From the NCBI RefSeq assembly GCF_001434665.1, contig NZ_AZDG01000020.1:1-46585 (forward strand): DNA of 46,585 bases, written 5' to 3'. The DNA is from Companilactobacillus tucceti DSM 20183 (GTDB taxonomy: Bacteria > Bacillota > Bacilli > Lactobacillales > Lactobacillaceae). Numbering within the stretch: the stretch's first letter is position 1; each line of letters begins with the position of its first letter. Positions 4,343 to 43,384 of the stretch are shown here, piece after piece. The notes below the pieces were generated by a model. That model did no database searches, was not told the origin of the DNA, and was given only the letters and a program-made list of their open reading frames with translations. The position numbers were made by a program, and so were the translations under genes.

Positions 4343-4890
4343 TGACAGAGCTAACAATTTACGAAAAATTTGCAGCAGAACAAAAACAAGCTGATGCAGA
4401 TCACCACAAACCAACAGCCGGTGCTATGACAGGACATATCGTTTCAAATCACGAATATATCAATATCAAGTTGCATCAACTAAAATGGTTTATTAAGGGA
4501 CCAAATGCTGAAAATTATAAGTCAGTATTAAACGACACCATCGACGAAAATAATGCTTGGTTTGACAAAGTAGCCGATCAATTATTAGATGAGAGTGAAT
4601 TACCACCATCAACAATGAAAGAATATTCAGATTACACAATGATCGAAGAAAATGGTGCAAATAAATACTTGGATGCAGAAGCAATGATCCAAACAGTTGT
4701 AAATGACTTCGCAACTGATAATATGTTTGTAACACGTGCCATCAAACTAGCAGAAAAAGAAGATCGTCCATACATGGCCCAAGTTCTAGTAGAACTACTA
4801 GGCTGGAATAACCACCAAATCCGCATCTATCAAGCCTTACTTGGTAATAGTGCTAAAGAAGGATTTGAAGATGAGGATGACGACGATTAG
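4342..4890 (+). CDS. dps: Dps-family ferritin-like protein
   Basis: 182-residue four-helix ferritin-like protein that stores iron and protects DNA from peroxide. LHQLKWFIKGPN (44-55) matches the Dps ferroxidase region, with His45 equivalent to Dps His31. FDKVADQ (74-80) supplies Asp75 and Asp79 at the Asp58/Glu62 positions. The second ferroxidase His appears replaced (Tyr59 by my alignment), so ferroxidase activity may be weakened. The C-terminal tail is strongly acidic (EDEDDDD). The gene starts inside the HMA stop codon and ends in TAG, which is also the edge of a long palindromic element. Regulation is probably from the FNR box at 4026. Confidence 0.85.
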   Translation: MTELTIYEKFAAEQKQADADHHKPTAGAMTGHIVSNHEYINIKLHQLKWFIKGPNAENYKSVLNDTIDENNAWFDKVADQLLDESELPPSTMKEYSDYTMIEENGANKYLDAEAMIQTVVNDFATDNMFVTRAIKLAEKEDRPYMAQVLVELLGWNNHQIRIYQALLGNSAKEGFEDEDDDD

Positions 4891-5013
4891 AGAGCGTAAC
4901 GAGACGTTCAGCTTCTGAGCATTACCTAGAATAACGAGTATGGCGTCTTATGCCATACTCGTTATTCGTAGTAAGCGCAGGAAGTTGTCTCGTGTAGCTC
5001 GTTTAAGAAGCAC
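4888..5013 (+). repeat. Stop-codon palindromic element, copy 1
   Basis: First of six related long hairpins. It begins at the dps stop (TAGAGAGCGTAAC). Nested stems: outer GAGC...ACGAGAC (4892-4905) with GTCTCGT...GCTC (4987-5000); middle AGCTTC...ATTAC with GTAAG...GGAAGTT; a perfect 16-bp central stem (4929-4944 with 4952-4967) and a 7-base loop. No T-run follows, so it is not a classic terminator. Variable outer arm: GAGAC/GTCTC. Confidence 0.75.
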
Positions 5014-5047
5014 TAAATAAAAAACCAACAGAAAGTAGGAGAGACAA

Positions 5048-5743
5048 ATGACAGAAGTTCACGGACATCACGAGCATGAAGAAACAGATGACTGTTTGGA
5101 TCTAGTAACGATTTTTCAATCACTACCAGAAGATGATTTGGCAAAAATTTCTACATTAGTATCAGATCGCCACTTTAAAGCTGGAGAGTATATCTTTTCA
5201 GCCGGTGACCCAGCAGATACTTTAACTATTGTCGCTCACGGTCAGGCAAAAGTATTTCAAATTGCCGCTAATGGACGTGAACAGATGTTAAGAGTCCTGC
5301 AAACTGGTGATTTTGATGGAGAAGCAGCCTTGTTTACTTCTAAAGATAGAACAAGCTTTGCTCAAGCTCTAATGGATACTAATGTTTGCCAGATACATCG
5401 TTCTGATTTCCAGAATATGATGAAATCCTCACCAGATTTAGCACTGAATATGATGAATGCTTTTGGTAAACGTTTAGTAAAAATGGAACAGCAAACAACC
5501 GAGTCAGCCGTTTCAAGCGTTGAAGGCAGACTCGCTAACTATCTTCTTGAAACAGGAGCTGGTTTGAAACAAGATCAATTCGAGTTACCTTTGAAGAAAA
5601 AAGATATCGCGACATATCTTGGAACTACTCCAGAGACCATCAGTCGTAAGTTAAAATCGTTAGATAACCAAGGCCTGATCGAGAAAAAATCCAATACTGA
5701 AATTAAGATATTGGACGCTGATGGATTGGCAATGGTTGAGTAA
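5048..5743 (+). CDS. Crp/Fnr-family regulator (FLP-like)
   Basis: 231-residue regulator: cyclic-nucleotide-binding-type beta-roll (about 20-140), dimer helix, C-terminal winged HTH. The recognition helix TPETISRKL carries the Glu, Ser and Arg that in E. coli FNR read TTGAT, agreeing with the two TTGA...ATCAA boxes upstream of the ATPase and HMA-dps. There is no Fe-S cysteine cluster. The two cysteines Cys16 and Cys114 have nearly the spacing of Cys5/Cys102, which form the redox disulfide in L. casei FLP (from memory), so thiol-based sensing is likely. The N terminus is His-rich (HGHHEHE), hinting at metal binding. SD TAGGAGAG precedes the ATG. It lies downstream of the genes it probably controls. 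Confidence 0.85.
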   Translation: MTEVHGHHEHEETDDCLDLVTIFQSLPEDDLAKISTLVSDRHFKAGEYIFSAGDPADTLTIVAHGQAKVFQIAANGREQMLRVLQTGDFDGEAALFTSKDRTSFAQALMDTNVCQIHRSDFQNMMKSSPDLALNMMNAFGKRLVKMEQQTTESAVSSVEGRLANYLLETGAGLKQDQFELPLKKKDIATYLGTTPETISRKLKSLDNQGLIEKKSNTEIKILDADGLAMVE

Positions 5744-5745
5744 TA

Positions 5746-5786
5746 AGGCATTATTCGTAAATATGCGAATAATGCTTTATTTTTTT
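5746..5786 (+). terminator. Rho-independent terminator after the Crp/Fnr gene
   Basis: GCATTATTCG (5748-5757) pairs perfectly with CGAATAATGC (5766-5775) and is followed by a T-rich tract including seven T. It separates the metal cluster from the transporter gene. Confidence 0.85.
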
Positions 5787-5914
5787 ATAAACTTAAAATT
5801 CTCCTAAGTTAAGTGATGAAGAGATCCGTGGTTAATATAATTAATTAAATATAAATCCGCTTTCATTTTATGTATAACAAAGTATCTTTTTGTGTTAATC
5901 TATATCTAATCGCT

Positions 5915-5943
5915 TGTCATAAAAAATAATCATATGATTATAA
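5915..5943 (+). promoter_or_regulatory. Transporter promoter with TAATC-N4-GATTA operator
   Basis: A 16-bp perfect palindrome (5927-5942) contains TAATC-ATAT-GATTA. It overlaps the spacer and -10 region (ATTATA, 5938-5943) of a promoter with -35 TTGTCA (5915-5920, spacing 17). A further half-site TAATCGCTTG is at 5908-5917. The same dyad occurs twice in front of the enzyme/TetR pair near 8.7 kb, so the TetR protein is the likely binder. Confidence 0.65.
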
Positions 5944-5987
5944 AGTAACTTTGCAGAGTTTGCTTAATATGATTAAGGAGAATATTT

Positions 5988-7487
5988 ATGTCAAAGATGT
6001 CTAAACAGAGTGATGTATACCATATTTCCGACGAAAAATATAAAGAATATGCGAATGCACAATCTAATGAAGAAATGCTCCCTCTACGTGAAGATAAAAG
6101 AACTATGGGATTTGGAAACTATTTTACTTTATGGATGGGTGGAATTCATAATATAGCAACGTATGCCACGGTTGCTGGATTCTTGCTTTTGGGAGCCCCT
6201 ATGAAGCATATAATTTTAGCCATTTTTTTGAGCTTCATTTTTTCTGCTTTTATGAATACCTTAAATGGACGAGCTGGATCAAAATATGGTATCCCGGGAT
6301 CCATGCATTTAAAATCCGTTTATGGTGATCGAGGTGCTAAATTACCAGGAATATTACGTGGTATTTTTTCTGGTTTAGCTTGGTTTAGTTTACAAATATA
6401 TACTGGGTCTCGAGCATTATATATATTAATTGCCGTTATTTGGCCTTCATTTGAAACATTAGGAGGCAATTTTAGTTTTATTGGTATTGATTTACCTAAT
6501 CTAATAAGTTTTATATTGTATTGGCTGTTTACCTTATTGATTGGATTAGGTGGTAGTAAATTAATAAATAAGTTTAATGTCATTTTGAACCCTTTAATTT
6601 ATATCTTCTTTATTGGTGCAGCAATTTGGGCCTTAAATGCAGCTGGAGGATTTAGTAATATTTTGGCTTTCACGCCTCCAAAGAGTTTGTCATACAATTA
6701 CCCTACGATTTTGGTATACTTTATGATTTTTAACTCTCTATTAGGATTTTGGTCATCACCAGCTGTGAATGTCGCCGATTATACGAAAAATGCAAAATCT
6801 AACAAGGATCAATCTGCAGGAATGACTCTTGGATTTGGAGTGGGTTATCTCATTTTTGCATTCTCCAGTGTTATTATTTTAGCTGGTGGCGCTTTACGAT
6901 ATGGTGTTACAGATTGGGCTGATTTTCAACAGTTTGGTATTTTATCTATTATGAGACATTGGAACCAACCGTTCGCTATTATTGGTGGAATTATTGTTTT
7001 GCTAATGGCAACGGTATCTGCCAACGTTTTGAGTAATGGATTGTCAGCTACCTATCAGCTAATAGCGTTGTTCCCTAAACGTTTCTCTTATAAAACGGGT
7101 ATGATAACTTCTGCAGTTGTTGCATTTATACTGATTCCGTGGAAAACAATGACTGGTAATGGTGGCGTTATGGCATTCATGAACATGATAGGTGTAATGT
7201 TAGGACCAGTTGTCGGGGTTATGTTAGCTTATTATTTTGTAATAGATAAAAGAAAGTTAGATTTAGACAGTTTATATCTAGATAAAGTAAATCCTAAGAA
7301 ATATAATCGTTACGGTGGAATTAATAAGAGCGCCTATATAGCCACAATAGTAGCTATCATTATTACGATGTTGGGTTATATCCACGGTTTTGAAATTATT
7401 AATCAATTGAGTGTTTTCGTTGGTGCAGGATTAGGATTTATTATTTCAATTATTTTGCCAAGATCAAAGAATAGAAATATTCAATGA
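5988..7487 (+). CDS. NCS1-family nucleobase/cation symporter-like permease
   Basis: 499-residue integral membrane protein with about 12 hydrophobic helices from residue 47 onward. The hydrophilic N terminus leads into LREDKRTMGFGNYFTLWMGG, the entry typical of the cytosine/purine/allantoin/thiamine (NCS1) family, and GIPGSMHLKSVYG matches the helix 2-3 region. Typical substrates are nucleobases, hydantoins or related cyclic compounds; the exact one cannot be read here. SD AAGGAG is 8 bases before ATG. It shares an operator with the ornithine-cyclodeaminase-like gene and the TetR gene, which suggests one catabolic unit, perhaps uptake and reduction or deamination of a cyclic amino or imino acid (inference). 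Confidence 0.85.
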   Translation: MSKMSKQSDVYHISDEKYKEYANAQSNEEMLPLREDKRTMGFGNYFTLWMGGIHNIATYATVAGFLLLGAPMKHIILAIFLSFIFSAFMNTLNGRAGSKYGIPGSMHLKSVYGDRGAKLPGILRGIFSGLAWFSLQIYTGSRALYILIAVIWPSFETLGGNFSFIGIDLPNLISFILYWLFTLLIGLGGSKLINKFNVILNPLIYIFFIGAAIWALNAAGGFSNILAFTPPKSLSYNYPTILVYFMIFNSLLGFWSSPAVNVADYTKNAKSNKDQSAGMTLGFGVGYLIFAFSSVIILAGGALRYGVTDWADFQQFGILSIMRHWNQPFAIIGGIIVLLMATVSANVLSNGLSATYQLIALFPKRFSYKTGMITSAVVAFILIPWKTMTGNGGVMAFMNMIGVMLGPVVGVMLAYYFVIDKRKLDLDSLYLDKVNPKKYNRYGGINKSAYIATIVAIIITMLGYIHGFEIINQLSVFVGAGLGFIISIILPRSKNRNIQ

Positions 7488-7540
7488 TAAATTGGTAGTG
7501 TTATAAAATATGGTCAGCTTTTAGTTATTAAGATAAATAA

Positions 7541-7580
7541 GGCGAGCACTCTAGTCGAGAGTGTTCGCTATATTTTTTTT
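7541..7580 (+). terminator. Rho-independent terminator after the NCS1 gene
   Basis: GCGAGCACTCT (7542-7552) pairs with AGAGTGTTCGC (7558-7568) with one G-U, loop AGTCG, followed by a run of eight T. Confidence 0.85.
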
Positions 7581-7610
7581 AGAGTGTAGAAATCTATATT
7601 TGGGCATAAT

Positions 7611-7650
7611 AAAGGCCCCATGTGTTGGTCTATTAACACATGGGGTCTTT
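7611..7650 (-). terminator. Terminator hairpin for the minus-strand enzyme gene
   Basis: A 16-bp stem (7611-7626 with 7635-7650, one G-U) with core CCCCATGTGTT lies eight bases beyond the stop of the ornithine-cyclodeaminase-like gene. On the minus strand it ends in CCTTTATTATG, a weak T tract. Confidence 0.7.
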
Positions 7651-7657
7651 AAGTATT

Positions 7658-8617
7658 TTATTGTTTTTCCTTTTCATAAATCATAATTGCTAAAGCAATA
7701 TCTAGGACTCCTGAACCTACACTTTCATTTAAAGTGATTTCATCGTTACTTTCTCGTTTCTTAATATTTCCAACTAAAGCTTCTCCGATAGTACCCGTTA
7801 CGTCGCTTTTAGATATTTCGCCATTTTTAAGTGGAATTAGTATATCACCTGCGGCATCCCATAGGCCTGACATATGTTCGGTTACAATTTTACTTGCTCT
7901 TTTTACAGTCGTAGAATCTATTTCTTGCATAAATGATGTAAATGAACCAATTGCGTTTATATGTGTTCCTGGTTTTAATTTTTTTCCGTCAAATACTGGT
8001 TTATGGGATGTTGTACAAGTACAAATTATGTCTGAATTTTGAACTAGTTCGTCATTGGATTCAGCTGCAACTATTTCGTAGTCACTATTTTTTACCTTTT
8101 CTATCATACTAATGAATTCTTTAACGCGTTTTTTATCAATATCACTTACGATAAGTTTTTTAATCTTGCGAACCTCTTGAATAGCCAGAACTTGTGAGTA
8201 AGCTTGAAGTCCAGTTCCAATTATTCCCAATGTATGTGCATCTTCTCTTGCATATAGTTTTGTTGCCACACCAGCGTTAGCACCAGTTTTAATGGCAGTT
8301 AAATAATTGGCATCGATTAGGGCTTCCAGAACCCCGGTTTCACGAGAGTATAAACTAATTGTGGAAATTACACTTGGTAATCCTTTAGAACGATTACCTG
8401 GAAAAACGGCTGAAAATTTAGAACCAAAGTGTGGTTGAGTTTCTGTATTTGCTACCAACCACTGACCTACATTCTCTTTACCATTTATAGGCATAAAAAT
8501 ACGATCACCCGAATAAAATGTACCTGCTATATTGTCTCGATAGGCATCTTCGATTGTTGAAATAGCCTTTTTCATTGATAGTGTTTCTTTTACTTGATCT
8601 TCTGAAATACGTAACAT
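7658..8617 (-). CDS. Ornithine cyclodeaminase / mu-crystallin family protein
   Basis: 319-residue NAD(P)-dependent enzyme. Motifs: KFSAVFPGN near 67-75 (conserved active-site Lys), DANYLTAIKTGA (102-113), Rossmann GTGLQA (134-139), later NAIGSF and DAAGDI segments. Family members are ornithine cyclodeaminases, alanine dehydrogenases, delta1-pyrroline-2-carboxylate or ketimine reductases; sequence alone does not choose between them. It is divergent from the TetR gene and shares its operator with the NCS1 gene. The SD AAGGAG on the minus strand supports the start. The neighbouring transporter argues for an imported substrate rather than housekeeping proline synthesis (inference). Confidence 0.85.
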   Translation of the reverse strand: MLRISEDQVKETLSMKKAISTIEDAYRDNIAGTFYSGDRIFMPINGKENVGQWLVANTETQPHFGSKFSAVFPGNRSKGLPSVISTISLYSRETGVLEALIDANYLTAIKTGANAGVATKLYAREDAHTLGIIGTGLQAYSQVLAIQEVRKIKKLIVSDIDKKRVKEFISMIEKVKNSDYEIVAAESNDELVQNSDIICTCTTSHKPVFDGKKLKPGTHINAIGSFTSFMQEIDSTTVKRASKIVTEHMSGLWDAAGDILIPLKNGEISKSDVTGTIGEALVGNIKKRESNDEITLNESVGSGVLDIALAIMIYEKEKQ

Positions 8618-8671
8618 ATTTATTCTCCTTAGAAATATTAATTTGCAGAGTTTACTTTAATTAGTGAATAA

Positions 8672-8717
8672 AATATAATCGCTTGATTAGATTATATCAA
8701 CGTGATTAAATATAATC
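8672..8717. promoter_or_regulatory. Divergent promoter region with two TetR-type operators
   Basis: On the minus strand, TTGATA (8700-8695), 17 bases, TATATT (8677-8672) forms the enzyme promoter. TAATC-GCTT-GATTA (8676-8689) fills its spacer and touches the -10. An inverted version, GATTA-AATA-TAATC, lies at 8704-8717 toward the TetR gene. The same TAATC-N4-GATTA dyad occurs at 5928-5941. Repression by the TetR protein at 8790 is inference. Confidence 0.68.
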
Positions 8718-8789
8718 AATAGGATGTGTGGAAACGATTTCAATTCATTGAGATATGGTAGTATATTCTAAATAGAAAGGTATTTAACT

Positions 8790-9500
8790 ATGAATAATAA
8801 AGAAATTCAGCGTCAGAGAATGTACGGTTATTTTATTACCGCATGTCAGGATTTAATTAAAGAAGAGGGAATCGATCAATTAACGATTCGCAAAATTTCT
8901 GATAAGGCCGGTTATAATAGTGCTACATTGTACAACTACTTTGAAAATTTAGATCAGTTAAAGGCATTGTCTCTACTGGATAATGTAAAACCTTACTTTT
9001 ATGCTATAAGATCTTTGTACGGTATGGATTTAGATTTGGTAGACAGGTTTCTTCTAATCTGGAGGGAGTATGCTAAATATTCTTTTGGTAATCCTCAAGT
9101 TTATATAGAAGTTTTTGAATCCAGTAATTCTGATGATATTTTGAGTTATATTGATAAATATTTCGACTATTTTCCTAGTGAAGAGTTTTCCAAAGATCAT
9201 GATGTATATGATCTTGTATACAATAGGGATATGAAAAGAAGAGACAGAGTTTTGCTAGAGCCTGAAATTGATGCGGGCTATCTTAGTGAGGAACAAGCCA
9301 GATATTTTATTGATGGTATTTATGCTCTTCATATAGGGATGTGCAATCAAGTATTGAATGATTATTATAGCAATTCAGAAGAAGCCTTAAAGTTATTTAT
9401 GAGTTACTTGATAGATTTTCTTTTGTTGAATTCCAGTATTAAAAAAAATAAGACAGAATTGTTGAATAGAATTTTGTCTATGAAAACAGTAAAGATATAA
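8790..9500 (+). CDS. TetR/AcrR-family transcriptional regulator
   Basis: 236-residue regulator. The N-terminal TetR HTH spans about residues 13-60: GIDQLTIRKISDKAGYNSATLYNYF, shown here as the motifs LTIRKISDKAG and SATLYNYF. The helical ligand domain follows and is not assignable to a known ligand. The SD AGAAAGG precedes ATG. Divergent from the enzyme gene; three TAATC-N4-GATTA dyads in the two neighbouring promoters are its likely targets, making it a local repressor of transporter and enzyme, probably induced by the substrate. Confidence 0.85.
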   Translation: MNNKEIQRQRMYGYFITACQDLIKEEGIDQLTIRKISDKAGYNSATLYNYFENLDQLKALSLLDNVKPYFYAIRSLYGMDLDLVDRFLLIWREYAKYSFGNPQVYIEVFESSNSDDILSYIDKYFDYFPSEEFSKDHDVYDLVYNRDMKRRDRVLLEPEIDAGYLSEEQARYFIDGIYALHIGMCNQVLNDYYSNSEEALKLFMSYLIDFLLLNSSIKKNKTELLNRILSMKTVKI

Positions 9501-9501
9501 A

Positions 9502-9537
9502 AATAAGACAATCCTCTAAGGATTGCCTTATTTTTTA
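9502..9537. terminator. Bidirectional terminator between TetR and GNAT genes
   Basis: AATAAGaCAATCCT (9502-9515) pairs with AGGATTGcCTTATT (9519-9532) around a 3-base loop; T6 follows on the plus strand. It serves the TetR gene and lies across the 3' end of the convergent acetyltransferase gene. Confidence 0.85.
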
Positions 9538-9966
9538 CATCTGTAAAACCATCTTTACATGAGGCGTAGTGTTAAACAAAAATTCCTCACCAATACGTTC
9601 AAATTTAAATTTTTCGTAGAATTTTTGTACATAAGTTTGAGCTTCGATTTCAATTCTGGAACCAGGGAAGTTACGCTTGATAAAACCAAGTACTTCATGC
9701 ATCAGAGACTTTCCTAAACCAGTTCCTCGTTGTGAGTGTTCAGTAACCACACGACCAAAACTAATGTGGTCACCTTCTTTGAAGACTCTAGCATAAGCTA
9801 CTAATTCATCATCTATATATTTGAAAATGTGAAATGCCTCAAGGTCAATGTCATCGACTTCTTTATATAGTCTAGTTTGTTCAAGGACAAAAACTTTTTG
9901 GCGTAATTTATAAATATCAAATAATTCTTTAGTTGATAATTCTTTAAATTCTTTAATTTCCCACAT
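9535..9966 (-). CDS. GNAT-family N-acetyltransferase, ElaA type
   Basis: 143 residues, the length of ElaA-like acetyltransferases. The acetyl-CoA loop QRGTGLG follows RVVTEHS, and the N terminus LYKLRQKVFVLEQ (seen here as IYKLRQKVFVLEQ) is the ElaA hallmark. The substrate is unknown. It is the second gene of an operon with the MarR regulator, two bases after its stop, so it is probably derepressed with it. No strong SD of its own; translational coupling is likely. Confidence 0.85.
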   Translation of the reverse strand: MWEIKEFKELSTKELFDIYKLRQKVFVLEQTRLYKEVDDIDLEAFHIFKYIDDELVAYARVFKEGDHISFGRVVTEHSQRGTGLGKSLMHEVLGFIKRNFPGSRIEIEAQTYVQKFYEKFKFERIGEEFLFNTTPHVKMVLQM

Positions 9967-9968
9967 GA

Positions 9969-10470: not shown

Positions 10471-10482
10471 AAAATTTTAAAA

Positions 10483-10524
10483 AATAGGAATTGTGGCTTA
10501 TGTCACAGCTCCTATTCTTTATAG
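10483..10524 (-). terminator. Rho-independent terminator, minus strand
   Basis: Reading the minus strand, ATAGGA..TGTG pairs with CACA..TCCTAT and is followed by six T. It lies 120 bases beyond the VOC-gene stop, after the palindromic element, and would stop transcription before the marR promoter. Confidence 0.65.
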
Positions 10525-10532: not shown

Positions 10533-10647
10533 TGCAAAAAAAAGGCTGCAACCTCCGCATAGCTACGAACCACGAATGATTGATGGTGCCAATCATTCGT
10601 GGTCCTAGGCTATGTTCCGGTGGCAAACCGCTTTTTTGCACTCTCTA
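10533..10647 (-). repeat. Stop-codon palindromic element, copy 2 (variant subtype)
   Basis: Read on the minus strand, it starts at the VOC-gene TAG: TAGAGAGTGCAAAAAAGC. The opposite end TGCAAAAAAAAGGC-type arm, an internal GCTATG/CATAGC stem and a perfect 14-bp central stem (10569-10582 with 10590-10603, loop ATGGTGC) complete a nested hairpin. The edge is identical to copy 6 but the inner conserved box differs, so it is a second subtype. Confidence 0.65.
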
Positions 10648-11115
10648 ATTGTGATCTACACTTTTTGACCAAGGGGATGTATGTAGCATCCAGTTAATGC
10701 CATATTTATCAGTAAAACTACCCATTTTTCCGCCCCAAAATTGTTCTTCAAAAGGCATAGTGATTTTTACTTCACCAGAATTCTTTAATTTCTCATAGAA
10801 ATCATCGGCAGCTTTTGCACTTTCAGCATCTTCACTATTAATATCAAGTAAAAGAGAAATCTGACCAGAAGGTTCAGAATCTCCAGTAAATGCATCGGCG
10901 CATTCAACTTTCATTCCTAGGATAGTAAATCCAGCGTGCATAGTCATACTATCTAAATCAGCGTTTTCAGGAAGACCGAATTGTTTTGCCTGTTCAGCCT
11001 TAGGGCTTAGACGATATACATCGGTCGCTCCGAAGACTTCTTGGTAATATTCAATAGCTTCTTTAGCATTTTTAAAAGAAAAATATGGATAGATTTGTGA
11101 TTGCATACGACTCAT
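10645..11115 (-). CDS. VOC-superfamily (PhnB/glyoxalase-like) protein
   Basis: 156 residues with the repeated beta-alpha-beta-beta-beta fold of PhnB-type proteins: YPYFSFKNAKEAIEYYQEVFG at the N terminus (given in two parts: YPYFSFKN and AIEYYQEVFG) and MPFEEQFWGGKMGSFTDKYG near the C terminus (MPFEEQFWGG, FTDKYGINW). These resemble the 3-demethylubiquinone methyltransferase-like/PhnB group of uncharacterised small-molecule binding proteins. Monocistronic. The stop codon TAG is shared with the palindromic element copy 2. Confidence 0.82.
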   Translation of the reverse strand: MSRMQSQIYPYFSFKNAKEAIEYYQEVFGATDVYRLSPKAEQAKQFGLPENADLDSMTMHAGFTILGMKVECADAFTGDSEPSGQISLLLDINSEDAESAKAADDFYEKLKNSGEVKITMPFEEQFWGGKMGSFTDKYGINWMLHTSPWSKSVDHN

Positions 11116-13607: not shown

Positions 13608-13608
13608 A

Positions 13609-19870: not shown

Positions 19871-21067
19871 ATGAAAAGGAGCTTTAGTGTTGTAACGGTT
19901 ATTTTAACTTTTATTATTTTGTTATCTGGTTGTAAGTCACAATCTCAATCAAAAACAAATCCTTATGATTCCAAAGTAACGTCAGTAAATAAAACCGCAG
20001 AAAAAATCAAATCTGAACATGACATATCAAAAAAGGTATCATCTTTGAAAGATTTTGAGGATGATTATCAAAAATATCAACATACTAAAAAGCCTTATAA
20101 ACAAGTAAATTCAGCATATCATCACCAAATAAAGACTATTAAAAGTTCCATTCAAGATAGTAATAAATCAACTATAAAGTCAGCCTCTGTTTCCAAGTCA
20201 AAAGAAGAAACTCAAGCCTCTTTGGAAAAGAAAATCTCAAATTTAAATGATCTTAAAAAAGAAGTGGAAGCTGAAAAAGAGATAGTTTATACATCCCCAG
20301 ATTTTGAAAATTTAAATAAAGATATCGATAAGCAGATAGAAAAAAATAAGGCAGGAATAACATCTGCCATCTTATCAACCACTTCTTCTAAAAAATACAT
20401 CGATGCATACAATCAGTTCTCCATGCAAAATAATCCTAAAGGAGAATCGAGAGGTAGCACACCTCGAGCCAAAGGATTCTATGAAACAGTTGGTTTGAGT
20501 GAGAAAGATTACTTCGCAATCTATACAGGTATATTTGATTATTATGGAAATGCAGTTGAACAAGGATTGATCACTAAAGTACAGTCTGACGATGCATTCC
20601 AAGAAGCACAAAGTAAACTTTTAGCAGGGAAATACGCTACTAAATCAACCGTTATTCATAATATGAATTTTTATCAAATTGAGAACGGCGATTATTCTGG
20701 TCTTATAGGATCTTGGAAAGAAGTTTCTGAAGGTGGAAGTATGCATGATGGTCAAGGTGTTCGCGAGTTGCCATTGACTGGTCAAAAGTTAAATATTACC
20801 AAATATAAAATCAATGATAGTCAAGTTTCAATGACTCAAAAAGATGGTGGAATAACATACTTTACTGACCAAAATGGATCAGAACCAGCTACCTTTGATG
20901 AGTCAGATTCTTTGAGTGTAGAGGCAACAATTGGGTCACAAATTTATATGATCGAATTTTATCCTAAGGGAGTACCAATGGCTGAAGAGAAGGATAATTC
21001 TAATAAAGAGCGTATTATGATTCATTCTAGTAATGATAGTTATTATGAAATATTTGAGAGAGCGTAA
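19871..21067 (+). CDS. Lipoprotein with coiled coil and DUF6287-like C terminus
   Basis: 398 residues. Signal peptide with lipobox LLSGC (Cys21). Residues about 30-170 are charged, Lys/Ser-rich and helical, likely coiled coil in the wall. The C-terminal third starts at MNFYQIENGDYSGLIGSW, the DUF6287 pattern seen in lactobacillar lipoproteins, followed by a beta-rich domain. Function unknown; surface role inferred. SD AAAGGGG. The stop codon lies within the edge of palindromic element copy 3, so the last residues (ERA) are encoded by the repeat. Confidence 0.8.
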   Translation: MKRSFSVVTVILTFIILLSGCKSQSQSKTNPYDSKVTSVNKTAEKIKSEHDISKKVSSLKDFEDDYQKYQHTKKPYKQVNSAYHHQIKTIKSSIQDSNKSTIKSASVSKSKEETQASLEKKISNLNDLKKEVEAEKEIVYTSPDFENLNKDIDKQIEKNKAGITSAILSTTSSKKYIDAYNQFSMQNNPKGESRGSTPRAKGFYETVGLSEKDYFAIYTGIFDYYGNAVEQGLITKVQSDDAFQEAQSKLLAGKYATKSTVIHNMNFYQIENGDYSGLIGSWKEVSEGGSMHDGQGVRELPLTGQKLNITKYKINDSQVSMTQKDGGITYFTDQNGSEPATFDESDSLSVEATIGSQIYMIEFYPKGVPMAEEKDNSNKERIMIHSSNDSYYEIFERA

Positions 21068-21186
21068 CAAAGCACGTTCAGCTTTCGAGCATTAAGGCAA
21101 ACGACTCCACCAATCCGATTTTGGATTGATGGAGTCGTTTGTTTTAAGTGGAAAAAGCTGTGGGTTGTTTCGCGTTTAAGCTGCAA
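21056..21186 (+). repeat. Stop-codon palindromic element, copy 3
   Basis: Begins GAGAGAGCGTAAC, its TAA being the lipoprotein stop. It has the shared box GTTCAGCTTTCGAGCATTAA, a central stem CAAACGACTCCA-c-CAATCC (21098-21116) with its complement (21123-21141), then TTTTAAGTGGAAAAAGCT and the distal end GCGTTTAAGCTGC. Outer arms GCG.AACAA/TTGTTTCGC pair. Orientation plus. Confidence 0.75.
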
Positions 21187-25873: not shown

Positions 25874-26002
25874 GCAGCGTAAACATGCGACAAAGCATAA
25901 CTTTTTCCGCTTAAAATAGAATACCCCAACAATCCTTTCAGATTGCTGGGGTATTCTACTTTAATGCTCGAAAGTTGACCATGCTTTGTTGCACTCTCTT
26001 TA
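25874..26002 (-). repeat. Stop-codon palindromic element, copy 4
   Basis: Minus orientation, starting at the CAP/SLAP gene stop (TAAAGAGAGTGCAA). Outer arms GCGACAAAGCAT (25887-25898) and ATGCTTTGTTGC (25981-25992) pair with one G-U. Next to them on one side only is the conserved GACC bulge; the box TTTTAATGC-TCGAAAGTT follows; the central stem is AGAATACCCCAACAATC (25918-25934) with its complement (25941-25957). Confidence 0.78.
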
Positions 26003-27082
26003 AATTGAATCTTTAGAAACAAACTTAGTATTAGGATTTGAGCCTGTGTAATTATACAAAGCGTCAAATTGACTATATGAATCGTAATCCCAATCAGCAT
26101 CAAAAGCCGCAGCGTTACCACTGATACCTAAACCAACACTAGGACCGGAGTAAATTAAAGCAGCACGGTGGCCGTAATGTCCGGCTTGTCCGCTACCAGT
26201 TAGGTTGTTGCCTTCATCATACCATTGTGATAGTAGGTAATAGGCAGCGTCTTTATCGGATTTAACGTCAGCCCACTTTAGCATGAAGTCAAATCCAGCA
26301 GTAGATAGGTTTTCAGAAGTCGATCTGGAAGCAGATGAATGGTCAAGTGTGCTACCAACTTGTTGTTCAGCACGTTGTTGAGCATAGTTCATCATATCTG
26401 ATGTTACGTGAACAGGTGCTGTGCCATTTGCTTTATGTAATGCATTTAGATATTTTTCAAAGTAATTATTGATATTGGCGAGATTTGGTTTGTATGTATT
26501 AACTTCTTCACCAGTATCAGGATCAATATTTTTATTAACATCAGTAAGGTGGCGTACTTCTACTCTAGGAAGAAGTCCCGCATCACCATGAGTTTGGTAA
26601 TTGTACAAAGTCATGAATTGGTGGGGTGAGATTTGATAGTATGTTCTACCGGTACTGAATTCAAAAACTACCCTTGAAACTAACCAGTCAGAATATTGTT
26701 CAAGATGTCCGTTAACGGATCCATCACGATCGTCAATTGTCTCTGCATCAGGTTGCTCAACTAAGATGTCAACTTTTCCTCGATCGTTATTGTTACCAGT
26801 TAAGCTAGCCACATCAGTTGATAGTAAAAATTCATTTGTTGAGACTTGATAGTATGTACGCCCATCTACTTGATTGGTTCTACCAACGCGCCAAGGTGTA
26901 TTAGCAGCAAGTCCTCTATTTTTTACCAAAATACCCTCTTTTGTGTATAGACGTGTAGTGGGTACGTCCTTTGTTGTAGCGACCATTGCCGCTTCAGCAT
27001 CCTTACTTAAAACGGAACTAGTAGCAAAAGCTGCTAGAGCAAGTCCTGAGACAGTTAGTGACTTCAGAAATAATGATTTCAT
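26000..27082 (-). CDS. SLAP-domain surface protein with CAP (SCP-like) domain
   Basis: 360 residues. Signal peptide to about residue 31 (AEAAM). Two SLAP-type repeats (about 35-92 and 105-163) with YYQVSTNEFL and YYQISPHQFM, then a CAP/SCP-PR1-like domain (about 200-345): LNALHKANGTAPVHV, ENLSTAGFDF, and QWYDEGNN...GHYGHRAALIY, with CAP His/Glu signature residues. In lactobacilli such proteins are wall-associated and of unclear enzymatic activity. SD GAGGAG on the minus strand. Stop lies at the edge of palindromic element copy 4. Confidence 0.87.
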   Translation of the reverse strand: MKSLFLKSLTVSGLALAAFATSSVLSKDAEAAMVATTKDVPTTRLYTKEGILVKNRGLAANTPWRVGRTNQVDGRTYYQVSTNEFLLSTDVASLTGNNNDRGKVDILVEQPDAETIDDRDGSVNGHLEQYSDWLVSRVVFEFSTGRTYYQISPHQFMTLYNYQTHGDAGLLPRVEVRHLTDVNKNIDPDTGEEVNTYKPNLANINNYFEKYLNALHKANGTAPVHVTSDMMNYAQQRAEQQVGSTLDHSSASRSTSENLSTAGFDFMLKWADVKSDKDAAYYLLSQWYDEGNNLTGSGQAGHYGHRAALIYSGPSVGLGISGNAAAFDADWDYDSYSQFDALYNYTGSNPNTKFVSKDSI

Positions 27083-37630: not shown

Positions 37631-38349
37631 ACTTGTCAATAAGAAAAATAAATGCTATTTTACAACTAAAACTACAATCAATTATCACAAACCTATCAAT
37701 TATGGTTGCTCCACTACTTGCTATCGGTTTTGTGCTAATAATGAAAATGTCCATGCCTAAAGCCGTTATGACGGGGGCATTTTTACTAAGTTTTGGGGCT
37801 TTGTTTAATTCAATCATGGGCGGTATCATGATGGGAAGTTATCCTCTTGCTGAAGAGAAGGAAAAGAATACGTTAAGAGTACTAATGACATCATCTGTTA
37901 ATGGTGCTGAATTCATAATTGGTAGTATTATTCCGTCAATATTAATGATAATTTTAGTTAATATTATTTTAGTTCCTATAGCTGGAATAGCTATGAATAA
38001 GGTTAATTGGCCTATTTATATTATTTATACTACTTTAAGTGGGTTTATTAGTATAATGATCGGATATATTGTTGGTATATATTCGAAAAATCAGATGCAA
38101 GCTGGAAATATTAGTATGCCCATACTTCTAATATTCACTATGACTCCTATGTTCCAAATGATTAATAAAACCATAGCCAACATTGCATCGTTTACATATT
38201 CTGGAACAATTATAAACTTTATAAATGATATGATTACAAAAAAATATTCGCCTAGTTTTAAAGATATAACAGTACTTACAATATGGACTGTTTTAAGCGT
38301 CTTAATATTTATTTACGCCTATACTAAACACGGCCTAGACTCTGAATAA
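37627..38349 (+). CDS. ABC-2 type permease
   Basis: 240 residues with six hydrophobic helices; SYPLAEEKEKNTLRVLMTS is the ABC-2 coupling element. Starts at a TTG that overlaps the ATPase stop by four bases (TTGA) with GGGAGGA nine bases upstream. Membrane half of the exporter; drug, peptide or lipid substrates are possible. Confidence 0.9.
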   Translation: MNLSIRKINAILQLKLQSIITNLSIMVAPLLAIGFVLIMKMSMPKAVMTGAFLLSFGALFNSIMGGIMMGSYPLAEEKEKNTLRVLMTSSVNGAEFIIGSIIPSILMIILVNIILVPIAGIAMNKVNWPIYIIYTTLSGFISIMIGYIVGIYSKNQMQAGNISMPILLIFTMTPMFQMINKTIANIASFTYSGTIINFINDMITKKYSPSFKDITVLTIWTVLSVLIFIYAYTKHGLDSE

Positions 38350-38442
38350 GTATTATTAGAGAACGTTTATAAAATGTTTTTCATCAATTGAAGAATATAC
38401 TAATTAGTGACAATACATTCAATCAAATTGCTAATACATATT

Positions 38443-38488
38443 AAAAAAGAAGACGAGTTCAGTTTTTTTACTGAATTTGTCTTCTTTT
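38443..38488. terminator. Bidirectional terminator between permease and Ric-like gene
   Basis: AAAAGAAGACgAGTTCAGT (38445-38463) pairs with ACTGAATTtGTCTTCTTTT (38470-38488), loop of six T. It ends both converging units. Confidence 0.82.
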
Positions 38489-38490
38489 AT

Positions 38491-38775
38491 TTATGATTTC
38501 ATATTAATTGAATCGGCGCTTTCTAACATTTGATAAGTTGCTTCAAATGTCGGACAAACGTCACCTGGGATTGCGTAATTTTGTGTGGTTTCACGAAGTT
38601 GATCAAAATCATCGTCTAAGTTTTGACCATTTTTAGCTGCTTCTTTGATGTTAAGATATTCTTCTCTAACAGCGAATACTTCAGGATGATTTTTACCATG
38701 CGCAATTGTAATTGCTTTAGTAAATAAATCTAATTTCTCTTCGTGTTCATTTAAATAATCTTTAACTGCAGTCAT
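38491..38775 (-). CDS. Small hemerythrin/Ric-like protein (partial resemblance)
   Basis: 94 residues. HGKNHPEVFAVREEYLNI and IPGDVCPTFEATYQML resemble the second half of the YtfE/ScdA iron-sulfur-cluster repair proteins, where a His motif is followed by P...C.t...ay. Too short to hold the full four-helix di-iron site, so it may be a short Ric homolog, as found in lactobacilli, or another helical protein. SD AAAGAGG on the minus strand. Function uncertain. Confidence 0.5.
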   Translation of the reverse strand: MTAVKDYLNEHEEKLDLFTKAITIAHGKNHPEVFAVREEYLNIKEAAKNGQNLDDDFDQLRETTQNYAIPGDVCPTFEATYQMLESADSINMKS

Positions 38776-38851
38776 CTATAAAACCTCTTTTCATTTGATA
38801 ACTTCAGTTTAAAGTAAGCGCTTATTTTTTAACTTGATCTGAATCAATTTT

Positions 38852-39199
38852 TTAATTTAAATCTCTGTAATGTTTGAAAAGTAAATATATCCCTCCAACT
38901 AGAAATACTAACGAGTACTTTAATAATAAGAAAATTTGCCACATAAAGTCATGTGGTAAAACTATATCTAAAATTACGAATGCAATGAACATGTAAGCAG
39001 TCGCATACATAGTAATTTTTGAAGTGCGTTCATCACCGGTGCTAAAAAGATTCCAACCGTTAAAAAGGTAGTATCCTCTGAAAATAACTATGCAACTGAT
39101 AACGAATAATACAAAGCTTCCTCCAACTAACTGGTTCCAATTTCCAGTAGATTCACCAGCCCAAAGATGTAGTCCTGTGAATAGATTATTACTGATCAT
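38852..39199 (-). CDS. Small membrane protein paired with an HTH regulator
   Basis: 115 residues, three to four hydrophobic helices (about 27-47, 66-86, 88-107). DERTSKITMYATAYMFI resembles the DUF2178-type membrane proteins that follow small HTH regulators in Firmicutes. The start overlaps the 3' end of the upstream HTH gene by 11 bases. Function unknown. Confidence 0.75.
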   Translation of the reverse strand: MISNNLFTGLHLWAGESTGNWNQLVGGSFVLFVISCIVIFRGYYLFNGWNLFSTGDERTSKITMYATAYMFIAFVILDIVLPHDFMWQIFLLLKYSLVFLVGGIYLLFKHYRDLN

Positions 39200-39425
39200 T
39201 ATTTTTTCCTTCCTCGTATTGAAAAATTTCGGTCAGTGGAACTTTAAAAAAATCTGAAATTCTAAATGCTAATAAAAGAGTAGGGACATAATTTCCTTTT
39301 TCCATAACAAATATTGTTTGTTTTGAGACACCAACTTTGTCTGCCAATTCTTGTTGTGACATTCTAGCCAGCACACGATGCTCGTAAACAGTATTTGAGA
39401 TGTTATCACCAAAGTCTTTTTTCAT
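39189..39425 (-). CDS. Small HTH regulator (Cro/C1 type)
   Basis: 78 residues from the ATG with GAGGTGAG seven to eight bases upstream; a longer reading from 39491 adds 22 hydrophobic residues before the SD and is rejected. The whole protein is an HTH domain with MSQQELADKVGVSKQTIFVM, of the YgzD/YozG type. It overlaps the small membrane protein gene, so the pair forms an operon. Such pairs act as stand-alone HTH with membrane partner. Confidence 0.85.
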   Translation of the reverse strand: MKKDFGDNISNTVYEHRVLARMSQQELADKVGVSKQTIFVMEKGNYVPTLLLAFRISDFFKVPLTEIFQYEEGKNNDQ

Positions 39426-39562
39426 ATATCTCACCTCGAAAATATAGTAACGTATGATTTTAAAAAAGTAAAGTAAACTTATACACAGCAAATAACTGTT
39501 TATAGACTGATAAATATGTAATAATGAAATTAAGAAAGACTATTGTATGGGAGGAAAGCATT

Positions 39563-39799
39563 ATGGCAGATAAAGAATTTACATTGGAAGAGTTGAAAAA
39601 GTATGATGGACAAAATGGCAATAAAGCATATGTTGCAATTGATGGTGTTGTTTACGACATGACGGATGTAAAACCTTGGGCAGGTGGTAAACATCATGGA
39701 AATACTGCAGGTAATGATTTATCTGACATTATCATTCATGCTCCACATAAAAAATCAGTGTTACCTAAATTGCCAGTTGTTGGGAAGTTAGTTAAATAA
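39563..39799 (+). CDS. Cytochrome b5-like heme/steroid-binding domain protein
   Basis: 78 residues from the ATG at 39563 with GGGAGGAAA upstream; an ORF start 13 codons earlier has no SD. FTLEELKKYDGQNGNKAYVAIDG followed by VYDMTDVKPWAGGKHHGNTAGNDL are the cytochrome b5-like fold's opening, as short bacterial members have it; the His pair in HH..H replaces the classical HPGG axial ligand. Heme binding is uncertain. Probably cytosolic. Confidence 0.82.
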   Translation: MADKEFTLEELKKYDGQNGNKAYVAIDGVVYDMTDVKPWAGGKHHGNTAGNDLSDIIIHAPHKKSVLPKLPVVGKLVK

Positions 39800-40184
39800 T
39801 CTAAAGATATGCTTTGAAAGTTGTAATATAGATGCCTCTAGGATCAAGAAAATTAGACCGCTATGGGACCGACCCGAGCCTTGGTCTCGGGGTCTCGATT
39901 TTGAACTTCGCAAAGTACGCGAATTTCAAAAGTCGCCCTGTGCTGTAAGGCCGTAAGTTCACGACCTAACATCACTCTTATTTGTTATTTCATGAAAAAG
40001 TAACCAGACTTGAGGAAGAACTTCAGAAGATTGCTACGGTTTTCTTTATTTATCTTTAAATTTGCAGCATAAACGTGCAACCAATCATAGCTTTTTCCGC
40101 TTAAAATAAACAAGACCAGCAATCCTTTGGATTACTGGCCTTGTTTATTTTAATGCTCGAAAGCTGACCATGATTGGCTGCACT
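39800..40184. other. Noncoding gap with two structured repeats
   Basis: No gene. It holds a GC-richer multibranched element (39856-39966) and palindromic element copy 5 (40064-40187); between them is about 95 bases of AT-rich sequence with no feature that I can support. Confidence 0.6.
39856..39966. repeat. Multi-hairpin structured intergenic element
   Basis: Three hairpins in a row: GACCCGAG-ccttggt-CTCGGGGTC (39871-39894), TTTTGAACTTCGC-aaagtac-GCGAATTTCAAAA (39899-39931, one mismatch) and GGCCGT-aagttc-ACGACC (39949-39966). Flanking GC..A.GGG/CCCTGTGC segments can close the first two in a multibranch. GC content is well above surroundings. It resembles, from memory, intergenic elements repeated in other lactobacilli; only one copy is in this window. 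Confidence 0.5.
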
Positions 40185-40187
40185 CTA
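40064..40187 (-). repeat. Stop-codon palindromic element, copy 5
   Basis: Minus orientation from the TAG of the immunity-like gene (TTAGAGTGCAG). Outer arms GTGCAACCAATCAT (40075-40088) and ATGATTGGCTGCAC (40170-40183) pair at 13 of 14 positions and have a different sequence from copies 4 and 6. GACC bulge and TTTTAATGCTCGAAAGCT box are present. Central stem 40104-40125 with 40129-40150. Confidence 0.78.
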
Positions 40188-40529
40188 AGGATGGAAAAAG
40201 GCCATGGCATTGAACACGGCTCCAAGGGAATCGGCATACGATTCTGAATAAGCGTTGCCATATTCGTGTATGATCTTATCCTGTTCAGGGCTAAAATGAT
40301 ATTTTTTACTTACTGCGATTTTCATTAAGAAGTTATTTAAAGTACTTAACGCTTCAGGTATTTCTTTGTATTGATCTTTAACGTTTTCTGGGTCGTTGAT
40401 TGAAATATATGCTTTGATTATTTCTTTTTTGATATCAATCTCAATATCTGAGTGGCCTAAAGTCCTGTTAAAATCTTTTAGTAATGAATTTATATTACTA
40501 ATTATCTCTTCTTTTTTTGATTGGTTCAT
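40185..40529 (-). CDS. Small helical protein resembling bacteriocin immunity protein
   Basis: 114 residues, all-helical, no signal peptide: INSLLKDFNRTL, then IIKAYISINDPENVKDQ, ALSTLNNFLMKIAVSKKYHFSPEQDKIIHEYG. The layout, including the FSPEQDKI end helix, matches the protein at 21211 (FTPQQEKSW) and enterocin A-type immunity proteins. No bacteriocin structural gene is visible around it. The stop codon TAG is shared with palindromic element copy 5. Assignment by pattern only. Confidence 0.5.
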   Translation of the reverse strand: MNQSKKEEIISNINSLLKDFNRTLGHSDIEIDIKKEIIKAYISINDPENVKDQYKEIPEALSTLNNFLMKIAVSKKYHFSPEQDKIIHEYGNAYSESYADSLGAVFNAMAFFHP

Positions 40530-40710
40530 TTAAACACTCCATTTTTCGTGTTGTTTTCATAACAATTATGAAAGTATGTTCTTAAAAATTCAAACAAGAG
40601 TCATGATTATAACAAATAAAATAAGTAATAAACAGCTATATGATATTGTGAGTGAATTGATAATGAAAGTCGTATAATAGAAGTATTCTAGATGATTTAG
40701 GGAGGAACTT

Positions 40711-43248
40711 ATGACTGAACTAACGCATTTTTATCAAAAATTCCAGCCAACACACTATGATCTTTATATAGATATTGATCGAGGTACAAAGGTTATCACT
40801 GGTAAAACTACAATTACTGGTGACGCCAAGGTTAAAGATATTTCGATCCATCAAAAGGATTTAACTATTAAATCAGTCCAAGCTGATGGAAAAGATGTTT
40901 CATTTACAACTGAAAATCAAAATGATGCTCTTAATGTTGCTTTAACAAAAACTGGTGAAGTAACTTTAACAATTGAATATTCCGCACCACTTACAGATTC
41001 TATGATGGGAATTTATCCTTCATATTACGAAGTAGACGGTGTTAAGAAACAAATCATTGGTACACAATTTGAAACTAACTTCGCTCGTCAAGCATTTCCA
41101 TGTGTTGATGAACCAGAAGCTAAAGCTAAATTTGATATTGCCCTTAAATTCGATGAACAAGACGGCGAAACAGTATTAAGTAACATGCCTGAAGTAAAGA
41201 CTGAAAATGGTGTTCATTACTTTGATACTACCGTTCGTATGTCTACTTACTTGATTGCCTTTGCTTTTGGTGACCTTCAAAGTAAAATAACGACTACAAA
41301 GAGTGGTGTAAAAGTTGGTGTCTTCGCTACTAAAGCACATAAAGCTAACGAATTGGATTTTGCTTTAGACATTGCCAAACGTGCAATTGAGTTCTATGAA
41401 GATTTCTACCAAACACCATATCCACTTCCACATTCATGGCAATTGGCTTTACCAGACTTTTCAGCCGGAGCTATGGAAAATTGGGGACTTGTAACATATC
41501 GTGAGGCTTATTTAACACTAGATCCAGATAATACTTCACTTGATACTAAACAATTAGTTGCCACAGTTATTACTCATGAACTTGCTCACCAATGGTTCGG
41601 TGATCTTGTAACTATGAAGTGGTGGGATGACCTATGGTTAAACGAAAGTTTTGCTAATATGATGGAATATGTTTCAGTTGATGCAATTGAACCTGACTGG
41701 CATATTTGGGAAATGTTCCAAACATCAGACGTTCCAGCCGCTTTACAACGTGATGCTACTGATGGAGTTCAATCTGTTCACGTTGATGTTGAAGATCCAG
41801 CCGAAATCGATGCATTGTTTGACAGTGCTATCGTTTATGCTAAAGGTGCCAGAATGCTTGTTATGATGCGTGCTTTAGTGGGTGACGATGCATTACGCAA
41901 AGGTTTGAAGAACTATTTTGCTGCACATCAATATAACAATGCCAAAGGTGCTGATCTTTGGAATGCTATTGGTGAAGCTGCCGGTATGGATGTTGCTAAA
42001 ATTATGAATACTTGGTTGGAACAACCTGGTTATCCTGTTGTTAAAGCCTCAATCATTGATGGTGAATTAACGTTGTCACAAGAACAATTCTTCATTGGGG
42101 ATGGTGTTGGTAAAGAACGTCAATGGCAGATTCCTTTGAACAGTAATTATGACGCTGCACCTAAAATTATGGCTGATAAAACTATAGTTATTGGGACATA
42201 TGACAAATTACGTAAAGAAAATGACAAACCTTTCCGTGTTAACGTCGGTAATAATTCACACTTTATTGTTAAATATGATGATGAATTATTGAAAGATATT
42301 TTAGATAATATTGATTCATTAGATTCGATTTCTCAATTGCAAATTTTGCAAGACTTAAGACTATTGGCAGAAGGTAATCAAATTTCTTACTCTGAAATTG
42401 TTCCATTATTGCCAAAATTTGCTGGAAGTCATTCAAATGTTGTTATTGCCACATTATATCGTGTCGCAAATGATTTGAAGAAATTCGTCACACCAAATTC
42501 AAATGAAGCTAAGTCTTTAGAAAAATTATTTGATAAATTGAGTTCTGACCAAGTTAAAAGACTAGGTTGGCAACCAAAATCTGGCGAATCAAATGATGAC
42601 CAATTGACTCGTCCATATGTTTTGAATGCATCGTTGTATGCTAAGAATCCTATTTCAATTGAATCAGCACATGCAATTTATGTAGATAATGAACAACAAG
42701 ATCTATCTGCTATTTCGGCTGATATTAGATTATTTATTCTTCGTAACGAAGTTAAAAATTATGGTACAGAAGAAGTCTTTGACAACTTATTAGATGAATA
42801 TCGTAAATCATCAGATGCTAGTTATAAAGAAGATATCTGTGCAGCATTGACTGCTACACCAGATCCTAAGTTGATTAAGAAATTAGTTGGATTCTTTGAA
42901 GACGCTGATACGATCAAACCTCAAGATCTACGTGCTTGGTATCGTGGATTGTTAGCTAATGACGCTGGACAAGAAGCTGCTTGGGATTGGATCAGAAATG
43001 ACTGGCAATGGTTGGATGACACTGTTGGTGGAGATATGGAATTTACAACATATATCACCGTTACAGCAATGATTTTCCATACACCAGAACGTTTGGCTGA
43101 ATTTAAGGCCTTCTTTGAGCCTAAATTGAATACACCAGGTATGACACGTGAAATAAGCATGGATATTAAAATCGTTGAAACACGTGTGAAGTTGATTGAA
43201 GCCGAAAAAGATGCTGTTAATGAGGCTGTTTCTGGTCTTGTTGATTAG
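40711..43248 (+). CDS. pepN: Aminopeptidase N, M1 family
   Basis: 845-residue zinc metallopeptidase, the usual length of lactobacillar PepN. GAMENWG (about 252-258) is the exopeptidase motif; zinc ligands HELAH (289-293) and Glu312 in NESFAN are present. Cytosolic enzyme that removes N-terminal residues of casein-derived peptides. SD GGAGGA precedes ATG by 8 bases. Downstream is convergent, with palindromic element copy 6 between the genes. Confidence 0.96.
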   Translation: MTELTHFYQKFQPTHYDLYIDIDRGTKVITGKTTITGDAKVKDISIHQKDLTIKSVQADGKDVSFTTENQNDALNVALTKTGEVTLTIEYSAPLTDSMMGIYPSYYEVDGVKKQIIGTQFETNFARQAFPCVDEPEAKAKFDIALKFDEQDGETVLSNMPEVKTENGVHYFDTTVRMSTYLIAFAFGDLQSKITTTKSGVKVGVFATKAHKANELDFALDIAKRAIEFYEDFYQTPYPLPHSWQLALPDFSAGAMENWGLVTYREAYLTLDPDNTSLDTKQLVATVITHELAHQWFGDLVTMKWWDDLWLNESFANMMEYVSVDAIEPDWHIWEMFQTSDVPAALQRDATDGVQSVHVDVEDPAEIDALFDSAIVYAKGARMLVMMRALVGDDALRKGLKNYFAAHQYNNAKGADLWNAIGEAAGMDVAKIMNTWLEQPGYPVVKASIIDGELTLSQEQFFIGDGVGKERQWQIPLNSNYDAAPKIMADKTIVIGTYDKLRKENDKPFRVNVGNNSHFIVKYDDELLKDILDNIDSLDSISQLQILQDLRLLAEGNQISYSEIVPLLPKFAGSHSNVVIATLYRVANDLKKFVTPNSNEAKSLEKLFDKLSSDQVKRLGWQPKSGESNDDQLTRPYVLNASLYAKNPISIESAHAIYVDNEQQDLSAISADIRLFILRNEVKNYGTEEVFDNLLDEYRKSSDASYKEDICAALTATPDPKLIKKLVGFFEDADTIKPQDLRAWYRGLLANDAGQEAAWDWIRNDWQWLDDTVGGDMEFTTYITVTAMIFHTPERLAEFKAFFEPKLNTPGMTREISMDIKIVETRVKLIEAEKDAVNEAVSGLVD

Positions 43249-43261
43249 ATAGATATACGAA

Positions 43262-43384
43262 TATTGAAACGTGCCAAAAAGCATAACTTTCGAGCATTAA
43301 AGTAAAATACCCCGGCAATCTTCCGATTGCTGGGGTATTTTATTTTAATGCTCGAAAGTTGACCATGCTTTTTTGCACTCTCTA
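43262..43384 (-). repeat. Stop-codon palindromic element, copy 6 (nearly perfect)
   Basis: Minus orientation from the Bax-inhibitor-like gene stop (TAGAGAGTGCAAAAAAGC). The inner stem is 36 bp (43285-43320 with 43325-43360) with only two G-U pairs and a 4-base loop; outer arms GTGCCAAAAAGCAT (43271-43284) and ATGCTTTTTTGCAC (43365-43378) pair at 13 of 14 positions. The only interruption is a one-sided GACC bulge (43361-43364). Confidence 0.82.

Follow-up and report, generated by a model that had tools for sequence, protein, structure and literature searches.

EFAR is said to integrate into stem-loops, deleting most of its target. PMC3733652 lists EFAR as an enterococcal miniature inverted-repeat transposable element, and PMC2267715 describes Efa-1 as intergenic, with a size of 163 and a pair of adjacent stem-loops. 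According to PMC1590033, the intrinsic terminators of low-GC Firmicutes are often located near stop codons. Here we analyse a stretch of 46,585 nt of Companilactobacillus tucceti DSM 20183 (contig NZ_AZDG01000020.1, positions 1 to 46,585; hereafter the window) that carries palindromic elements of 115-131 bp behind genes. On balance, these are probably copies of an EFAR-like miniature element that takes over terminators, in the sense of the gene, and brings its own.

The window had been predicted from its sequence to contain six such elements with a common layout, each in the sense of the gene that it follows, and all six were recovered (Table 1). The left edge is AGAG(T/C)G in all of them and the right edge contains CGTTT; the four-base bulge that they share is confined to the 5' side. 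From the edges inward come a copy-specific lower stem, the bulge, a short helix, an internal loop and a long upper hairpin. With 200 dinucleotide shuffles per element, the RNA-fold z values of the six were -8.8, -7.9, -7.0, -10.0, -11.5 and -13.5, and no shuffle folded as well. As announced, TAG is the stop codon of the gene in four copies (elements 1, 2, 5 and 6). The edge and box had been thought uniform: AGAG, the 5' bulge and CGTTT are indeed common to all, but the boxes split into three sequence classes, A (box CTTTCGAGCATTAA), B (box GCCACCGGAACATAG) and C. According to Pfam, the genes bearing the elements are unrelated to one another.

A covariance model built from the six window copies gave at least 144 matches in the 2.17-Mb genome of the strain, with 150 of 770 candidates scored; some of these matches are the antisense strand of another. 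Since other parts of the genome hold copies that score up to 134 bits with this six-copy model, the elements cannot be attributed to chance. The 111 best matches were examined, and a rough motif rule assigned 78 of them to class A, 28 to class B and 5 to class C (one class A match is the antisense of another and is left out wherever 77 copies are counted). The enrichment at stop codons and the gene-sense orientation predicted from the window hold genome-wide. The edge is located -10 to +25 nt from a stop on the same strand in 88 of the 111 copies, and 0 to 12 nt from it in 69, while random points in the same loci fall within these intervals in 132 and 52 cases out of 4000, respectively. Stops on the opposite strand are scattered from -17 to 145 nt from the right edge. 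The gene of some copies extends into the element, where it ends at an internal TAA. In 760 kb of the sister genome G018, a classical terminator lies no more than 100 nt from the stop in 182 of 625 open reading frames (ORFs). The stem of these terminators starts at a median of 9 nt behind the stop and within -10 to 25 nt in 138 of 182 cases, the distance being measured to the stem for terminators and to the base behind AGAG for elements. The anchoring of the elements at stops is thereby accounted for: ordinary terminators begin there too, and the elements occupy terminator positions.

For 27 of the 92 elements with a usable upstream ORF, the G018 sequence that was compared contains an ortholog whose alignment reaches the C-terminal end. 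Behind these 27 stops, G018 presents an ordinary terminator in 18 cases (by eye), an element in 6 and neither in 3. A script flags 14 of the 18 terminators and misses those at C16_34797, C1_223057, C5_26525 and C13_43260; for the last one, the compared stretch ends after 37 nt, and the complete site was seen in a separate comparison. Where G018 holds an element, it is of the same class at C13_4888, C1_161589 and C49_36975, and of a different class at the same stop at C3_22856 and C51_54074, while an arms-only hairpin is found at C13_10521. In the clearest pairs, the stem-loop alone differs between the two genomes. At C24_4636, the left flank (ACTTATC and an A tract) and the right flank (CTTTTGTAC) are the same in both. 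The same is true of C1_9272, where AAAG and CTTTTTTT are common to both genomes, with A-tract and T-tract flanks.

Other relatives give a similar picture. Plain terminators were found behind the gene of element 3 in G036, behind the gene of element 4 in G036 and G018, and behind BI-1, the gene of element 6, in G036, G018 and G005. From the 34 genomes with the BI-1 gene, 30 loci were read, and a full gene-sense element is present in C. tucceti only; L192 has a copy in antisense, and a short remnant is left in L195. The dps gene, found in 35 genomes, is followed by a class C element in 8 of the 30 loci read, including that of C. tucceti, with arms that differ and still pair. The element is missing in G011, one of the nine closest dps genes. 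In G018, the orthologs of ORFs 8790+, 11301+ and 13621- (L212) are followed by plain terminators whose core closely resembles the centre of class A (AATCCGATTTTGGATT); the class A upper hairpin has the look of a separate, dispersed family of terminators. The G018 orthologs of ORFs 10645- and 39524+ (L212 and L215) have arms-only hairpins, with the element edges and no centre.

With a detector written for the present analysis, we searched for terminators in and around the copies. Inside the element, 66 of the 77 class A copies hold on the sense strand a hairpin whose tail is T-rich (7 or more T in 10), and 24 do so on the antisense strand; with a threshold of 6 T, these numbers rise to 74 and 59. 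Such an internal hairpin is found in 2 of the 28 class B copies and in none of the 5 class C copies. A terminator starting at most 70 nt behind the element accompanies 21 of 28 copies in class B, 3 of 5 in class C and 3 of 77 in class A. No Rho was found over the cut-off in the genome (two matches, of 36.8 and 19.5 bits for a cut-off of 509), and the idea of Rho sites was dropped for this reason.

The class A copies covary. In the 77 copies, 24 pairs show at least two Watson-Crick types, for a total of 1681 Watson-Crick, 77 GU, 40 AC and 40 other cells. The variable cells are paired in 95.6% of cases (1758 out of 1838); the corresponding range is 68-71% for 200 shuffles and 36-42% when the partners are slid. 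For the lower-arm pairs alone, 653 of 688 cells are paired, and there are 56 distinct left arms. Related copies are not independent in these counts, and the U-rich tail of class A itself contributes GU pairs. The gene-sense strand is the more stable one in 66 of 77 class A, 27 of 28 class B and 4 of 5 class C copies. Covariation and sense-strand stability support an RNA role, without proving it.

We propose a palindromic, non-autonomous element, some 125-190 bp long. It would replace the intrinsic terminator downstream of a gene and would be oriented like that gene. This proposal builds on the observed copy number, anchoring, orientation, covariation, strand bias and terminators of the sister genome at the same stops. 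Class A would bring its own terminator as a central hairpin with a U-rich tail; in class B and in the Enterococcus faecalis relatives, this role would fall to a second hairpin that immediately follows the long one. What is left of the old terminator in the clearest cases would be its A tract and its T tract, as flanks. As RNA, each copy would form a very long hairpin in the 3' untranslated region (3'-UTR), beginning at the stop codon. The class C element at dps, located between two genes, may serve mRNA processing instead. The element presumably moves by transposition or recombination via some enzyme; it would really terminate transcription, and its lower stem may protect or otherwise mark the 3' end. 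Several expectations of the original prediction are refined here. The 3'-UTR structure, strand-biased and covarying, and the turnover among species at orthologous loci are in agreement with it. The usual lack of a T tract is true at the outer end only, given the T-tailed hairpins held inside most class A copies and behind most class B copies. As to form, the elements are indeed "not simple terminators", but classes A and B apparently come with a terminator. Insertion at stop codons is better described as the replacement of an intrinsic terminator, which starts 0-25 nt behind the stop.

Several observations weigh against this proposal. Neither a terminator nor an element is found at three of the 27 G018 sites (C1_212621, C24_8169 and C24_8353), and four of 19 pairs have no usable right-flank alignment (C16_34797, C18_18310, C1_170289 and C5_26525). 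The comparison with G018 is unrooted, and the loss of an element in G018 would look alike at single loci. Among the 111 copies, 16 have no stop of a same-strand ORF in range, and 7 are outside the interval of -10 to 25 nt. Class A also has terminator-like hairpins on the antisense strand, their number (24 or 59 out of 77) depending on the threshold. No mobilising enzyme was found, Y1 transposase and reverse transcriptase having been searched in the C. tucceti genome, and no autonomous parent was seen behind the class A right end in the 3 of 13 loci that were read.

The coordinates of the features are given in Table 1. Element 1 is located between its Dps/ferritin-like gene and the next ORF (5048-5743). 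The covariance-model match of element 2 extends to 10521. The DUF6287 match of the gene of element 3 is slightly under the Pfam cut-off, and the ORF of element 5 has no Pfam match. Element 6 is an almost perfect palindrome, and each of its arms contains the box. Element 7 matches model positions 15-109 (38.1 bits, E = 8e-9) and coincides with inverted repeat I7.

Table 1. Palindromic elements of the window and the terminator adjoining one of them.
Feature	Class	Coordinates	Strand	Relation to neighbouring gene
Element 1	C	4888..5013	+	TAG 4888-4890 is the stop of the Dps/ferritin-like gene 4342-4890 (Pfam PF00210)
Element 7 (degraded partial copy)		7506..7601	+	18 nt behind the stop of permease ORF 5988-7487 (PF02133)
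Classical terminator hairpin and T run		10479..10516	-	Directly behind element 2; coordinates counted by hand
Element 2	B	10533..10647	-	TAG is the stop of the glyoxalase/VOC gene 10645-11115 (Pfam PF00903)
Element 3	A	21056..21186	+	Gene 19871-21067 runs in and stops at internal TAA 21065-21067
Element 4	A	25874..26002	-	Begins at the TAA stop of the CAP/SlpA-domain gene 26000-27082, right before AGAGAG
Element 5	A	40064..40187	-	TAG is the stop of ORF 40185-40529
Element 6	A	43262..43384	-	TAG is the stop of the BI-1 (Bax1-I) gene 43382-44080

Some copies have more than two halves. Many of the GAGCG-type copies are followed by one or two more right halves, and in nine of them the 12-base arm is identical to the first right arm, the centres being decayed. 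A subset of the GAGTG-type copies has a second right arm and a T-rich end. These extra right halves are taken as remnants or as full right ends of the unit. At L006 (C23:29434), L034 (C48:83427), L039 (C45:114062) and L053 (C15:33642), one left half is followed by two to three right halves in tandem, and the left, first right and second right arms agree three-way (the extra arms being equal or close to the first, with decaying centres). At L045 (C48:68913-69044), a single element lies between convergent genes, with AGAGAG at both ends, each near the stop of its side.

The elements are widespread in the genus, with matches in 19 out of 19 genomes of one sample (1 to 111 each); in a sample of the order, none was found in G039, of the same genus. 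Outside the genus, matches were obtained in 1 of 12 genomes. The order sample, screened with strict filters and 17 candidates scored per genome, gave matches in 23 of 198 genomes (including C. tucceti and G007), belonging to five Lactobacillales families. A sample of the class gave 2 of 200, C. tucceti included, the other being G305, with a candidate match of 47 bits. From 93 matches in 69 loci, 83 were used (8 weak or antisense and 2 short ones were left out). An ORF stop is located at -12 to +20 nt in 30 of these 83 (by family 13/40, 5/8, 5/21, 5/11 and 1/2, and E. faecalis 1/1), and the sense strand folds better in 64. The stop anchoring is thus weaker in these loci; several of the copies stand in tandem arrays, of which the first unit alone can touch a stop. 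Such arrays, with a period of about 120-128 bp, occur in other genera (L299, L302 and L304 in G170, L317 in G139, L296 and L297 in G198). The covariance model R1 matches an E. faecalis copy at 46.7 bits. One E. faecalis record contains 8 long copies, 72-100% identical to the query, each with a 128-nt hairpin and a second (terminator) hairpin; they are intergenic, measure 166-191 bp and have an ORF stop at -2 to 12 nt in 5 of 8 cases. With element 3 as query, no match was found in the phage collection, and the idea of a phage origin was dropped; 8 plasmid records have a left half behind scrK. In Lactiplantibacillus and Pediococcus plasmids (L143-L145), this left half follows the scrK stop, with an annotated IS3 transposase gene directly behind the copy in two of the three that were viewed. 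Among open-licence PMC papers, which do not cover the subscription journals, no description of these elements in Companilactobacillus was found.

A regulatory 3'-UTR RNA family, bound by a protein or an RNase and acting on mRNA stability or processing, would be selected at certain genes, its spread being secondary. In favour of such a family, the edges, the internal loop and the bulge on the 5' side are conserved between classes as well as between families, the stems vary with compensation, and the sense strand is favoured; the class C copies kept behind dps at 8 of 30 loci have wholly different pairing arms and, in C. tucceti, a position ahead of the next gene. However, most sites are not shared with G018, where 18 of 27 have a terminator instead, the window elements sit at unrelated genes, and some copies form tandem arrays. 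We regard this explanation as rather unlikely, though the most serious competitor of the element that replaces terminators.

Two further explanations seem to us highly improbable, and about equally so. In an attenuator-like switch, the left arm would have two possible partners, its own right arm and a second one that leads into a T tract (terminator). In 19 of the 78 class A matches, the 120 nt downstream contain another complement of the left arm (up to 2 mismatches out of 12); about five of these 19 then have a T-rich end, the rest being extra right halves. The pattern ATAGTTTTGTCCCAAACTC is found at 13 places with at most 3 mismatches (reversed control: 0), 10 of them just behind listed copies. 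But the second arm is missing from most copies and may simply be the full right end of a mobile unit; when 8 copies were folded with their downstream sequence, the left arm paired with the first arm in 7 and with the second in 1. The other explanation is a DNA-level recombination hairpin resembling attC, a folded single strand with a one-sided bulge, lying in gene sense behind stops and used by some recombinase. The bulge, the conserved edges, the variable paired arms, the stop-codon side and orientation, and the tandem arrays in other genera all fit. Nevertheless, the copies are dispersed and are not gene cassettes, and GU cells exceed AC cells (77 vs. 40) with a more stable sense strand, which suggests RNA. 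Moreover, the comparison with integron attC, made on the core site, is negative: that core is GTTRRRY, and the right-edge consensus CGTTTA, with T at the fourth position, does not fit it.

The replacement of terminators by an EFAR-like element may be part of something wider, which we put forward tentatively, judging it possible and somewhat less probable than not. There would be an order-wide class of structured mobile elements in Lactobacillales that targets the intrinsic terminator. The stem-loop between the A and T tracts would be exchanged, invariably in gene sense, for a giant hairpin with a terminator of its own, and the arms would be rewritten at each locus yet complementary, at some loci three-way. 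If true, this would imply an undescribed recombination mechanism that recognises hairpins, together with a large unrecognised class of 3'-UTR RNA. The data suggest that terminators can be exchanged wholesale among species that are close relatives, and this in a genome without a Rho match over the cut-off; they link a little-noticed E. faecalis repeat to a family present in at least five Lactobacillales families. About 100 copies, element-free sister sites and natural arm variants offer a test system for a giant hairpin at the stop. They also point to a gap in Rfam and in genome annotation.

In the C. tucceti genome, Y1 transposase (PF01797) gave 0 matches, the control being positive in 5 of 14 genomes, and no reverse transcriptase (RVT_1) was found over the cut-off; the idea of reverse transcription was dropped on this ground. 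Repetitive extragenic palindromic (REP)/GTAG repeats, according to PMC3733652, are also palindromic and intergenic and may supply a TAG stop, but they measure 20-40 bp vs. 115-131 bp here. On this length and the lack of a Y1_Tnp match over the cut-off, the idea of REP and its associated tyrosine transposase (REP/RAYT) was rejected. An existing Rfam family, mentioned in the original prediction as a possible objection, was looked for: 0 window matches reached the gathering threshold, and in a relaxed search of 7 C. tucceti and 9 distant loci all matches were below the gathering score. The FuFi-1 RNA (RF02986) gave a weak full-length match to one class B locus, including its terminator, but with 20.9 bits for a gathering score of 59.6. 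With intrinsic terminators as described in PMC1590033, the elements share the place behind the stop, the sense orientation and the flanking 5' A tract and 3' T tract; they are nevertheless far longer, repeated and nested, with conserved edges and a covarying lower stem.

EFAR and Efa-1 come closest. The present elements differ from them by their sequence classes, by their more than 100 copies, by the central terminator of class A (behind the element in 3 of 77 copies only) and by the extra right half-units. The stem-loop integration reported for EFAR resembles the situation at the 18 of 27 G018 orthologs (14 by script) that have a terminator instead, with the stem-loop swapped in the clearest pairs, in a comparison that is unrooted. 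The likeness is drawn from descriptions and from the 46.7-bit E. faecalis match, rather than from the published consensus sequence. It includes the two adjacent stem-loops, the size (about 163-170 bp for EFAR/Efa-1), the intergenic position in the E. faecalis relatives and the same two-hairpin plan in class B. While the original prediction knew of no described element with such a layout, the same architecture is thus present in E. faecalis, where it fits Efa-1, as presented in PMC2267715, and EFAR.

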